Both the position numbers and the translations under genes were made by a program. Of a stretch of 64,000 nt of DNA, positions 4,081 through 57,710 are shown one piece after another. Origin of the DNA: Blautia sp. (GTDB taxonomy: Bacteria; Bacillota; Clostridia; Lachnospirales; Lachnospiraceae); the NCBI GenBank assembly GCA_017475035.1, contig JAFVGK010000062.1:1-64000 (forward strand). The letters run 5' to 3'. Each line of letters opens with the position of its first letter. Position 1 is the first letter of the stretch. Under the pieces are notes generated by a model. It was not told the origin of the DNA. It worked only from the letters and a program-made list of their open reading frames with translations, and did not search any database.

Positions 4081-4163
4081 CTGCGGCGACTGACAACAAC
4101 GCAGCCTGGGCGGATTCTGATGCGCCAGATGTAAAGGTTATTTATGTACAGATCCTTAGCGGA
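4081..4163. repeat. R1 dispersed repeat, copy a
   Basis: Contains GGCGACTGACAACAACGCAG and TGTAAAGGTTATTTATGTAC followed by AGATCCTTAGCGG. It closely matches 7309-7394 and in part 14042-14080 and 46516-46567. All four lie just upstream of a start codon. It ends 32 bp before the oxidoreductase start. Confidence 0.75.
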
Positions 4164-5197: not shown

Positions 5198-5615
5198 GGC
5201 ATCTTCTCCTGGCTCTTCTCAAAGAAGCCTCAAACGTCAAACCTCAGACTTATATCCTTCTGCGGAGATAGCCTGGCTGTTATTATCTGTCAGAGTTATA
5301 GTAAACGACATGGAAGTTCTTCCTCTGATCCATTATGATGAAAGATTTTTTCGGTAACATAGAACATAAAAGGAAAGGTATTTTTGACGTTTACTCTGAA
5401 AGTCGGCCCACCCCGCAAGGGGTGCGGCCATAATGGGATGCACCCATGCCCTCACTTTCATTCATGGTGGTGCCAAGCATAGCGGGGTATGGGGGTTTAC
5501 TATAATTTGACACCGATCCGGGAAATAGTGAAAGCCATAAAGCCGGGCTTCATATTTTCGCTTGTCAAATAAAATATTGGCCTGCCATAACCAGCTCGGC
5601 GCATAACCTTGGGAC
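5198..5615. other. Non-coding stretch before the nested hairpin element
   Basis: No gene was recognised. It holds a small GCAA-loop hairpin (CACCCC-GCAA-GGGGTG, 5410-5425) and a 33-bp segment at 5435-5467 whose reverse complement recurs at 21327-21359, 5' of the second nested hairpin element. Confidence 0.5.
5435..5467 (+). repeat. 33-bp repeat, inverted partner at 21327-21359
   Basis: It contains CCCATGCCCTCACTTTCATT; the reverse complement of 21327-21359 contains CCCATGCCCTCGCTTTCAAT. About 28 of 33 positions agree. Both copies lie upstream of a nested hairpin element but in opposite orientation. Confidence 0.6.
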
Positions 5616-5803
5616 GGCTCCCGGATCGATGTCACAATGAGCGACGCATTAGAAAAATAATTGACGAGACTGAAACCGATGGGAGACTTGAGGCCTGAGG
5701 TGGCTCCGGTTCATCCGGAGACGCCTCAGACCTATAGTCTCCCACGGGAGATGGCTCGGCTGTTATTTTTCTGCAGAGCGAATGTGACACCGATCCGGGA
5801 GCC
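5616..5803. repeat. Nested-hairpin element H, copy 1
   Basis: A ~188-nt element built from three nested inverted repeats. The outer stem is 5616-5635 with 5784-5803 (GGCTCCCGGATCGATGTCAC, 19 of 20 paired). The middle stem GAAAAATAA (5652-5660) pairs with TTATTTTTC (5763-5771). The inner stem 5681-5700 pairs with 5724-5743 (17 of 20), capped by CTCCGG/CCGGAG. Flanking CAGCTCGGC and GCCGAGCG can pair outside it. It aligns without gaps to 21471-21648. It may be a structured RNA or a MITE-like element; no coding sense is seen. Confidence 0.75.
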
Positions 5804-5911
5804 CATGCAAGCCTGGAAGCCGAGCGTCAGGCAATCATTTTACCCTGAAATATTTATACCCTGAACAATTGCAGATCCTTACATTAACTCCTTTACACCA
5901 CAGGCAGACAG

Positions 5912-7308: not shown

Positions 7309-7394
7309 CTACGGCGGCTGACAACAGCGCAGCCTGGCGGATTCATTAGGCGCAGGATGTAAAGGTTATTCATGCACACATCCTTAGCGGGGAA
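7309..7394. repeat. R1 dispersed repeat, copy b
   Basis: Matches copy a at 4081-4163: GGCGGCTGACAACAGCGCAG, then GGATGTAAAGGTTATTCATG and ACATCCTTAGCGGGG. It ends 37 bp before the ftsH start and lies in its 5' untranslated region. Confidence 0.75.
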
Positions 7395-12684: not shown

Positions 12685-12715
12685 GTCGCCTGAATCGTCG
12701 TAAACAGAATATAAA

Positions 12716-12912
12716 AGGAGATTGATTTTGTTTTCGGCAGCCCAACTGCCGAAGCAATAAAATCATTATCCGAAGACATTGGGTCAACGGAAAAACTTCG
12801 TTATAAGATATAAGAGGAGACCGATTTTGTTTTTGGCAGCTCAATTGCCGAAGCGGCAAAATCGTCGTCTTTGTAAATTGAGTCAACGGACTGAATTTTC
12901 ATTTTGGGAGGA
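12716..12912 (+). repeat. R3 dispersed repeat, two tandem copies
   Basis: Copy A starts GGAGATTGATTTTGTTTTCG (12716) and copy B starts GGAGACCGATTTTGTTTTTG (12816). Each forms a stem in which TTCGGCAG pairs with CTGCCGAA (or its variant) inside GATTTT...AAAATC, then runs to GGGTCAACGGA or GAGTCAACGGA. Copy B ends TTCATTTTGGGAGGAG at 12912, which supplies the ribosome site of the next gene. Other copies lie at 43305, 48591 and (minus strand) 55322. Confidence 0.8.
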
Positions 12913-14080: not shown

Positions 14081-14083
14081 ATA

Positions 14084-14175
14084 TGATTCAGGCGGCAAAA
14101 GGTCATGTGAAATTGAGTGTGTTTCTTTTTTTCATGAGATCGGGCCGCAGAATCAGGCTTCTGTCGATGCAATCA
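14084..14175. repeat. MITE-like M element, short copy
   Basis: It starts TGATTCAGGCGGCAAAAGG and ends CTTCTGTCGATGCAATCA. These ends are imperfect inverted repeats. Inside is a TCATG...CATGA hairpin, flanked by GCGGC and GCCGC which can also pair. Related copies: 16932-17063, 57493-57710, and fragments at 12646-12700, 38217-38236 and 48355-48425. It lies between the ACT and UPF0210 genes. Confidence 0.7.
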
Positions 14176-14204
14176 TTATTATAGAAAGAGAGCATCCATA
14201 CTTT

Positions 14205-16931: not shown

Positions 16932-17063
16932 TGATTCCGGAGACAGAAAATCATACATATCTGCGCAAAATGAGCGGATTCGCGAATCCTGAATGGCTGC
17001 TGAATTCCCGAAAGCGGCTCCTCTGCGAAGAGAAGCGCAGAATCGGATTTTTGCCGATGCAAT
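16932..17063. repeat. MITE-like M element, diverged copy
   Basis: It starts TGATTCCGGAGACAGAAAA right after the tmcAL stop and ends GATTTTTGCCGATGCAATA. The interior GCAAAATGAGCG and CTGCGAAGAGAAGCGCAGAA match 57618-57690. The ends are imperfect inverted repeats like those of the other M copies. Confidence 0.6.
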
Positions 17064-17119
17064 AAAGAACCCTGCAATCAAGAATGTAAAGAACGAATAA
17101 AAATCCCATGGAGGTCTGA

Positions 17120-18475: not shown

Positions 18476-18535
18476 CTCTTGCACTCATCCTTCGTCCGGC
18501 AGAGCAGCTTAAGGAGGCTCAGACGATACCTTATA

Positions 18536-18631
18536 TCCGGAACCGTAAACGTTGATCGGTCAACTCAACGTTTAACGAGGAACGCGCTTCCCTTCCGATC
18601 CGTAACGCCAGTTCATTGTGTTTACAGGTAT
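18536..18631. repeat. R4 dispersed repeat, copy 1
   Basis: A ~95-bp sequence including GGTCAACTCAACGTTTAACG, GCTTCCCTTCCGATCCG and CAGTTCATTGTGTTTACAGG. A near copy is at 43434-43531 in the same orientation. It lies between the MATE gene and the pta promoter. Confidence 0.75.
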
Positions 18632-21326: not shown

Positions 21327-21359
21327 CCATGATTGAAAGCGAGGGCATGGGCATATCCC
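21327..21359 (-). repeat. 33-bp repeat, inverted copy of 5435-5467
   Basis: On the minus strand it reads like 5435-5467. It includes GGGCATGG (21343-21350), which can pair with CCATGCCC at 21306-21313 just after the ackA stop. Confidence 0.6.
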
Positions 21360-21470
21360 AAAACAGCCATACCTATCGTGGGGCAGGCCAACTTTCAAAA
21401 TAATCAGAGCGATCTATGATTCCTGTCAGTTATCACAAAACAGCTCGGCTCATAACCCTTCAGACGGCGG

Positions 21471-21648
21471 ACGGATCCATGTCACAATGAGCGGCGCATC
21501 AGAAAAATAATTGACGAGACTGAAACCGATGGGAGACTAAAGGTCTGAGGTGGCTCCGGTTCATCCGGAGACGCCTCAGACCTTTAGTCTCCCACGGGAG
21601 ATGGCTTGGCTGTTATTTTTCGGCAGAGCGAATGTGACATGGATCCGT
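21471..21648. repeat. Nested-hairpin element H, copy 2
   Basis: Outer stem ACGGATCCATGTCAC (21471-21485) pairs perfectly with 21634-21648. Middle stem GAAAAATAA (21502-21510) pairs with TTATTTTTC (21613-21621). The inner 20-bp stem 21531-21550 pairs perfectly with 21574-21593, around CTCCGG/CCGGAG. It aligns gap-free with 5621-5798; the inner part is nearly identical while the outer stem differs by compensating changes. It lies between the ackA stop and the yceD promoter. Confidence 0.78.
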
Positions 21649-21790
21649 AAGCCGGCGCAAGCCTTCAAGCCGAGCGTCAAGAAAACCATAAAACCTCTCG
21701 AAGCCAAGCGTCAAGAAGCGACAGAACTTCTCGAAGCCGAGCTCCGGATAATCATTTGAAACACAGAATCAGTTTGTCAAGAAAAAATGG

Positions 21791-21819
21791 TTGACAAACG
21801 ATTCCCCCCTATGTATAAT
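21791..21819 (+). promoter_or_regulatory. Consensus promoter of the yceD-rpmF-plsX-rnc-smc run
   Basis: TTGACA (21791-21796), a 17-bp spacer and TATAAT (21814-21819), a perfect sigma-A match. The start point would be close to 21826, about 28 nt before yceD. Confidence 0.92.
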
Positions 21820-43304: not shown

Positions 43305-43373
43305 GTGACAGACAGCAAAACCGTCATCCGAAGACACTGGGTCAACGTATAAAACTTCGTTTCGGGAGGAAGA
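43305..43373 (+). repeat. R3 dispersed repeat, partial copy
   Basis: AAAACCGTCATCCGAAGACA, GGGTCAACGTATAAAACTTC and GTTTCGGGAGGAAG match the right half of R3. Unlike the other copies, no start codon follows its GGGAGGA. Confidence 0.7.
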
Positions 43374-43433
43374 CGCGGAGAGATAAAAGGTTACAGAAAC
43401 CTTGAAATAATCAGATGATTGCGTTAATATATA

Positions 43434-43531
43434 ATCGGTAATGTAAACGTTTGCCGGTCAACTCAACGTATAACGAATGAACGCGGTTCCCTTCCATTCC
43501 GAAAAGGCAGTACATTGCGTTCACAAGTATA
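43434..43531. repeat. R4 dispersed repeat, copy 2
   Basis: CGGTAATGTAAACGTTTGCC, GGTCAACTCAACGTATAACG and GGTTCCCTTCCATTCCG match 18536-18631 in the same orientation. It sits upstream of the SH3-like repeat protein gene. Confidence 0.75.
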
Positions 43532-46373: not shown

Positions 46374-46515
46374 ATATCCCGGAGCCGCCCAAAAAAAGAC
46401 GTCACCTGCCGGTAACGTGTGCCTGGCAGCGGCCGGTTCCGGTGTACGGTGGGTACCGCCTGGAAACGTAAGGCTATGTTAAAAAACGATCAGGAGCTGT
46501 GCAAAAACAACCTGT

Positions 46516-46567
46516 TCAGATGGCGCAGGATGTAAAGATCAATTATGCACAGATCCTTAGAAAGGGA
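46516..46567. repeat. R1 dispersed repeat, copy d
   Basis: GATGGCGCAGGATGTAAAGA then TTATGCACAGATCCTTAGAA match copies a and b. It lies between the T-box terminator and thrS and runs into the ribosome site AAAGGGAG. Confidence 0.7.
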
Positions 46568-48354: not shown

Positions 48355-48425
48355 CGCCCACAGACACGAGAGCAGCTCCGCTGCGAACCGATCCGCAGAA
48401 TCAGGCTTTTGTCGATGCAATCATA
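48355..48425. repeat. M element, right-end fragment
   Basis: CGCCCACAGACACGAG, then AGCAGCTCCGCTGCGAACCG and AGGCTTTTGTCGATGCAATC match 57554-57710 with an internal stretch missing. It begins at the thrS stop codon. Confidence 0.65.
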
Positions 48426-48488: not shown

Positions 48489-48590
48489 GTTACAAAAAAA
48501 TTACAAAACCATGTAGATTTTTTTTCTTTTCCGTAGTATAATGAACCAGAGATTATTCGAAGAGGATAAGGTATTTGTTGTTGTGCGGAA

Positions 48591-48687
48591 AGGAGACTGG
48601 TTTTGTCTTCGACAGTCCGGCTGCCGAAGCAGCAGAATCGTCATCCGAAGACATTGACTCAACGTATAAAGCTGCTTTTGGGGAGGA
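48591..48687 (+). repeat. R3 dispersed repeat, copy upstream of the LysM gene
   Basis: GGAGACTGGTTTTGTCTTCG, TCATCCGAAGACATTGACTC and GCTTTTGGGGAGGAG match 12816-12912 and 55322-55400. Its GGGAGGAG end is ten bases before the LysM protein start. Confidence 0.8.
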
Positions 48688-48697
48688 GCACGGAACG

Positions 48698-55430: not shown

Positions 55431-55560
55431 ATAAAAAAAGAGCAGCATTTGAAATGGTGCAGCGCACACTCAAATACTGCCCAGACGGTCGGCTTTGAAC
55501 GAAACCTGCAAATACCCTGCGGTTATCCGCTTTCTCCGTCAGCATCTGCAAGTTCATTTA
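55431..55560 (-). promoter_or_regulatory. Probable ZTP (pfl) riboswitch of fhs with terminator
   Basis: In the minus-strand leader, GCAGAT (55549-55544) pairs with ATTTGC (55513-55508), enclosing TGACGGAG and a GCGG-ATAA-CCGC hairpin. After a linker comes CCGTCTGGGCA (55488-55478), the counterpart of the conserved pfl segment CCGCCTGGGCA. Its CCGTC can form the expected pseudoknot with GACGG (55540-55536). The next arm, GCAGTATTTGA, pairs with TCAAATGCTGC and is followed by TTTTTTT: a terminator overlapping the conserved segment. ZTP riboswitches commonly control fhs. Purine/folate shortage would then switch fhs on. Confidence 0.75.
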
Positions 55561-57492: not shown

Positions 57493-57710
57493 TGATTCAG
57501 GCGACAAAAGGTCATGCAAAAATGAGCTCGCTCATTTTTGCATGAGATTGGGTCGCCCACAGACACGAGGAAGTAGCCATTTTGCACTATTTACACTTGA
57601 TTTCGCAAATCTTTCTGTGCAAAATGAGCGAATTCCGAGTGGCTGTAGGATCGCGAGAGCAGCTCCGCTGCGAAGCGATCCGTAGAATCAGGCTTTTGTC
57701 GATGCAATCA
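57493..57710. repeat. MITE-like M element, longest copy
   Basis: It starts TGATTCAGGCGACAAAAGG and ends GCTTTTGTCGATGCAATCA, imperfect inverted ends. Inside, TCATGCAAAAATGAGC (57512-57527) pairs with 57530-57545, enclosed by GGCGAC/GTCGCC. A second part holds GCAAAATGAGCG and GAGCAGCTCCGCTGCGAAGC. TGATA flanks both sides (57488-57492 and 57711-57715), a possible 5-bp target duplication. It lies between the FGGY kinase and secreted protein genes. Confidence 0.75.

Follow-up and report, generated by a model that had tools for sequence, protein, structure and literature searches.

The two nested hairpins in the window, a stretch of 64,000 nucleotides of Blautia DNA, belong to a dispersed family of non-coding palindromes, which we regard, with a probability of roughly 60%, as a MITE-like repeat restricted to the genus, mobilised in trans, with selection and copying between its arms each playing a part in keeping the fold. 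Of the two readings offered in the original prediction, a structured RNA or a palindromic mobile DNA, a palindromic dispersed element is thus the better one. As far as our searches show, the repeat family is undescribed but of a known general kind.

An alignment of 26 full copies gives an element of about 237 bp (230–239 bp from end to end) whose limits are sharp (left, CAGCTCGGC; right, GCCGAGCGT(CA)) and beyond which conservation is weak; as a pair the ends are written CAGCTCGGC / GAGCGTCA. Both copies lie where they had been placed, and both are longer than originally described (Table 1). Each folds over its whole length as one long nested hairpin (z of -12.1 and -12.8 for copies 1 and 2), far beyond chance, with none of 200 shuffles of either copy as stable as the native fold. 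Terminal inverted repeats are present: in the fold, GCTCGGC close to the left end is base-paired to GCCGAGC close to the right. The core of copy 1 consists of a CGAGAC / GGCTCG base, a purine-rich internal loop, a long stem and a tip of the form TGGCTCCGG-loop-CCGGAGAC. The gap-free homology claimed for the two copies holds for 5621–5798 against 21471–21648 but not for 5616–5803, where 188 bases face 178. As predicted, the element is non-coding: no listed ORF of at least 90 aa overlaps either window copy, and a mechanically called ORF overlaps three of the 26 full copies (C31, C90:128662 and C118:31182). Short repeats of the form CTCGAAGCC(A/G)AGC at 21684–21745, directly after copy 2, resemble pieces of its right end.

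Table 1. Parts of the repeat element in the window and the basis on which each was delimited.
Feature	Position	Strand	Basis
Copy 1, full element (CAGCTCGGC ... GCCGAGCGTC)	5592..5828	+	Ends are the conservation limit over 26 full copies; fold
Copy 2, full element	21441..21678	+	Conservation limits over 26 full copies; fold; alignment to copy 1
98-base core of copy 1	5663..5760	+	Alignment with two other species
98-base core of copy 2	21513..21610	+	Same cross-species core alignment
Outer left arm of copy 1 (GGCTCCCGGATCGATGTCACA)	5616..5636	+	
Outer right arm of copy 1 (TGTGACACCGATCCGGGAGCC)	5783..5803	+	
Middle stem of copy 1, left side (GAAAAATAA)	5652..5660	+	Direct reading; pairs with TTATTTTTC in the fold
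Middle stem of copy 1, right side (TTATTTTTC)	5763..5771	+	Direct reading; fold
Weak right-end fragment of another copy	5504..5560	+	Profile match of 23.0 bits, 23 bases ahead of the copy 1 profile match

Instead of two copies, the host genome contains at least 65 whole or partial ones, namely 26 full copies, 18 shortened copies that keep both ends, 19 that keep the right end alone and two inner fragments. They were classed by scanning the fetched loci with a profile made from 16 full copies (threshold of at least 20 bits), and their total is a lower bound because the genome searches scored part of the first-look candidates (40 of 59 for blastn, 40 of 45 for the left arm and 40 of 68 for the right arm). 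The 94 matching pieces returned by blastn of the host genome include many that hit the same copies on the reverse strand or in part, and a weak model match at C139:34699-34783 was left out of the 65. The right end is retained in 63 of the 65 classed copies and none has the left end only, the left-arm and right-arm searches having been run separately. Since one of the 19 right-end-only copies (C29) has a left end further out and two others (C31 and C78) may have one, truly left-truncated copies number 16–18.

Pairwise identity among the full copies is 84–98% (mean 89%). Compared with a single full query, some left-truncated copies are 79–97% identical versus 85–93% for full copies. Shortened copies have lost the inner hairpin at differing positions; our reading of four of them (C94:84298, C128:56.9k, C41 and C167:43.9k), which have a common junction, is that the left arm carries GAAAAATAACAGCCGAGC, the reverse complement of the full right arm, or a near variant of it. 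Several copies are arranged in tandem, many truncated ones directly preceding a full copy, and C136:50089 has right-flank sequence in common with its neighbour C136:50305. Several left-truncated copies, among them C15:19027, C97:24341, C128:31825, C136:99175 and C186:6849, start, as we read them, soon after a terminator-like hairpin and T run. A further copy, C118:15252-15507, as read, has in its core a sequence like the short repeat found at 12714–12894 of the window.

Covariation among the genome-wide copies, which had been suggested as a check, was tested on the RNAalifold structure of the same 26 full copies with lone pairs dropped. Over its 76 pairs, 21 cells are changed on both sides and still paired, as against 2.6 expected from shuffling, and the highest value in 2000 shuffles was 9. 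One cell changed on both sides broke its pair, and two further cells with changes on both sides, at pairs mismatched in the consensus, are unpaired. Of the 79 one-sided changes at paired positions, 27 disrupt pairing. The middle stem, said to be unchanged, is indeed identical in the two window copies but varies in others, for example in C31, where two of its pairs are changed on both sides.

Between species, the comparison covers the 98-base core. In the three species that carry it, 98.1% of 1184 cells are paired, and 13 pairs and 56 cells are changed on both sides compared with 6.5 and 9.3 after shuffling, the structure being derived from the same sequences on which it was tested. A value of 13 pairs was reached in one of 500 shuffles, and controls in which the partners were slid by 1–3 columns gave 2–5 pairs and 2–10 cells. 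The core of G446 is 67% identical to that of the host and aligns without gaps against most copies. The core base (CGAG/CTCG) and tip (CTCCGG/CCGGAG) are almost invariant across species, and invariant pairs argue neither for nor against a fold. Exceptions within the core are pair 40/65, unpaired in five sequences, and pair 33/72, unpaired in eight. The fold of the element is conserved across the three species. From species to species the core stems vary on both sides, yet CGAGAC, GGCTCG and the tip remain almost constant; we therefore consider the core to be selected for its fold and its loop letters, and it is here that the case for such selection is strongest.

The original prediction rested its case for selection on two pairs whose letters we confirm: C-G at 5621/5798 versus A-T at 21471/21648, and G-C at 5628/5791 versus C-G at 21478/21641. 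The latter is a true two-sided change, G-C being the state of the family and C-G that of copy 2. At 5621/5798, however, the family majority is an unpaired A facing G, here assumed to be the older state; copy 1 changed on the left side, where TCC at 5619–5621 replaces the majority GGA, and copy 2 on the right, each reaching a pair alone. The two copies thus changed opposite sides of this position, which is not a compensating pair. Selection on the fold stands as a claim insofar as paired changes do keep the fold, but it loses one of its two showcase pairs, and copying between the arms yields paired changes as well.

Such copying is apparent in the outer stem at its GGA/GGA loop, where 18 of the 21 cells that changed are complementary to the base opposite in the same copy. 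The loop is paired at all three positions in four copies (counted as copies, not events), in three by a change of GGA to TCC on the left and in one by changes on both sides. Of the 61 cells changed at mismatched facing positions outside the loop, 13 gained complementarity (about one in five, versus one in three by chance), and we therefore dismiss copying between arms as a general process. In the parts of PMC8794818 consulted, template switching is described as making and keeping hairpins, and the joint repair of several neighbouring mismatches is a pattern ascribed to it. Copying between arms is probably part of the account of the paired changes, which can arise in this way without selection on an RNA. 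The 26 full copies together with the two further species represent a natural experiment on pairing in a long hairpin, in which selection on the fold can be set against copying between arms. They also advise caution in that "compensating changes" in just two copies of a palindrome may be two separate one-sided changes.

The family appears in few genomes. A covariance model built from 27 sequences (the 26 host copies and L073) was used for the search of relatives that had been proposed, and matched three of 64 Blautia genomes, with at most the best 46 candidates per genome scored: the host, G038 and G446. The G038 copy is the one already in the model; G446 has six places, none of them in the model. 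A degenerate pattern scan of genome contigs gave a single match, in a metagenome-assembled genome (MAG) of Blautia sp. from sheep duodenum (L073), and this stretch is identical to that of G038. Among 98 relatives searched by blastn two matched, the host genome and G038. A family-wide model search with the best 10 candidates per genome scored matched one of 397 genomes. Pattern searches added chance matches: an order-wide pattern matched two of 392 genomes, the host and G349, the second arm being absent by eye in the latter, and a family-wide tip pattern matched four of 397, the three outside the host lying in stretches that look coding by eye. These order- and family-wide samples, which contain few Blautia genomes and include neither G038 nor G446, are of little use for judging the rest of the genus, and distant members may be missed by them. 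Neighbours of the G446 elements (L102, L104, L108 and L110) carry, as read from the sequence, a repeated hairpin TGAGTCAAGGAACCTGTCCCC..TGACTCA.

Viral contigs gave no match to three exact patterns of the element and phage and plasmid records no blastn match to it, on which grounds we set aside a phage or plasmid origin. In agreement with the prediction that it fits no named family, the element is matched by no Rfam family above the gathering threshold; scores below it came mostly from animal miRNA models, and also, at E 1.6–2.7, from snoRNA, twister-sister, lncRNA and S10-Clostridia leader models. Within the literature searched, the text accessible to us names no such repeat in the genus Blautia.

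An oxidoreductase-like gene and a lactonase-like gene, convergent in order, flank copy 1, and copy 2 is set between an acetate kinase gene and a YceD-family gene. That each copy follows the end of a gene is true of these two but not of the family at large: by simple ORF calling, in which some ORFs are shorter than 100 aa, the left ORF is directed into the element in 16 of the 25 full copies that have one called, divergent ORFs flank four of these 25, and the right ORF points away from the element in 15 of 26. A scan for promoters and terminators found no promoter around copy 1 and one terminator-like site, outside the element. After copy 2 there is a perfect consensus promoter (12/12) at 21791–21819, and three minus-strand promoter matches (9–10 of 12) near this copy are likewise all outside the element. 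Another repeat is located upstream of both copies in opposite orientations, at 5391–5467 (minus strand) and 21327–21404 (plus strand), 74% identical.

A site without the element, which the original prediction had advised looking for, was found for copy 2 in G038, the nearest relative examined and the only genome in which this site was read. Here the ackA stop codon is followed by the yceD promoter region after about 10 bp, as compared with about 470 bp in the window, including the element and another repeat. G038 is another species and its ackA is only 80% identical, so the element may instead have been lost there. A search with the copy-2 region matched 57 of 60 Blautia genomes (best five candidates per genome scored), and the element itself was matched in the host genome and, at another place, in G038, and in no others. 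Many intergenic places in the host document dispersal, and the single element-free site, in another species, may point to polymorphic insertion.

Whether the family belongs to the MITEs depends on the feature considered. Its size (within 70–300 bp), non-coding nature and terminal inverted repeats fit; a target-site duplication does not, as no direct repeat at the element ends stands out over the 26 copies. The best offset tried reached 3.6 standard units among several thousand combinations and was taken as chance. As to a partner enzyme, matches to Y1 transposases were limited to one truncated, ordinary IS200-type gene in the host and one in G446, both at contig starts and both without element sequence in their fetched flanks, and none turned up in G038, the three genomes all being incomplete. 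We therefore rejected these genes as an IS200/RAYT partner, and among the Y1/IS200-type matches in these three genomes no dedicated transposase with matching ends was found. The family works like a MITE, but it is at the target duplication that membership fails.

Taking these data together, we propose that non-coding, imperfect palindromes spread into intergenic DNA by means of machinery encoded elsewhere. Single-strand (HUH) enzymes read hairpins and leave no target duplication, and we infer that the element moves as DNA by an enzyme supplied in trans which reads its hairpin in this manner. A copy in a transcribed gap would add a very stable hairpin to that transcript. Selection on the fold and loop letters would account for the paired changes in the core, and the outer arms have probably at least partly been made alike by template switching between them during replication.

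A simple MITE model does not predict loss of the left arm in up to 19 copies with no left-end-only copy among them. This asymmetry is what a spread from the right end via RNA or another one-ended intermediate would leave behind, with 16–19 copies lacking the left arm, the right end kept in 63 of 65, and some truncated copies as well preserved as full ones. We nonetheless judge such a route to be very unlikely. Many truncated copies stand directly before a full copy in tandem, and such positions, together with the right flank common to C136:50089 and C136:50305, indicate that local duplication and deletion explain part of the pattern; moreover, the arm searches were unequal in the share of candidates scored. 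Yet more remote is a mobile structured RNA that would be transcribed, bound at its conserved core by a host or partner protein and rewritten into the genome from its right end, although by analogy with eukaryotic short retroposons it might yield left-truncated copies and no fixed target duplication.

A structured RNA made from the plus strand, trans-acting or part of mRNA ends and with the repeats as functional copies, appears improbable rather than far-fetched, for it would explain why the core stems vary on both sides in three species with loop letters nearly fixed. Were the plus strand to function as RNA, one would expect single changes to produce more G-U than C-A. Within the inner part of the element G-U occurs at 11 pair columns (73 cells) and C-A at four (4 cells), but the excess is not significant over the whole element (18 versus 10 columns, p = 0.18) and absent from the outer arms (7 versus 6 columns, 11 versus 9 cells); the cell counts are inflated by shared ancestry, and 22 cells are other mismatches. 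The bias hints at RNA-level selection that may act on the core only, a hint weakened by the shared ancestry. In addition, the promoter and terminator signals around the window copies all lie outside the element, and its orientation to neighbouring genes is mixed. An intergenic, GC-rich hairpin flanked on either strand by an A tract and a T tract could also be a bidirectional terminator or insulator spread by selection. We hold out little hope for this explanation and rejected the terminator reading for the window, since the scan calls neither copy a terminator; several truncated copies, as we read them, follow a terminator-like hairpin of their own, and in G446 the T tract is just TTTT. The MITE-like repeat mobilised in trans remains the reading that we prefer.

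The window holds other repeats and structured RNAs. Clostridiales-1 RNA (RF01699), a structured RNA of Clostridiales according to the sections of PMC2864571 consulted, is found at 57493–57690, with partial relatives at 14081–14176, 17009–17066 and 48367–48424; our element does not match it. Further short repeat families occur at 12714–12894, 43313–43476, 48589–48692 and 18532–18578, another family of about 46–82 bp at 4081–4162, 7309–7390 and 46515–46560, and a ZMP/ZTP riboswitch at 55472–55556 on the minus strand.

Compared by description only, and with sources represented by extracts, three groups of bacterial repeats come closest. CGTC-tagged REPs have a terminal CGTC and are without a known dedicated transposase, and our element has CGTC(A) at one end, as have most G446 copies; the REPs measure 20–40 bp, have stems of 8–9 bp and a CCA-like tail and occur mostly in alphaproteobacteria (PMC3733652), so that despite the CGTC end neither size nor stem of our element (about 237 bp) fits this identity. 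The MITEs listed in the same source, namely RUP, NEMIS, bcr1, ERIC, YPAL, Nezha and EFAR, resemble it in being non-coding, intergenic and strongly folded, 70–300 bp long, with inverted ends and many copies (PMC3733652). Our element differs from them in that no target duplication was seen and no transposase with matching ends found, and also in being palindromic throughout, with a conserved asymmetric core and left-truncated copies. The repeats bcr1–bcr18 belong to a different lineage, the Bacillus cereus group, and are similarly lineage-restricted and intergenic; in the extract consulted some of them are MITE-like and some have a conserved RNA fold, and 40.0% and 50.9% of the copies in two strains are present in mRNA (PMC3446304).
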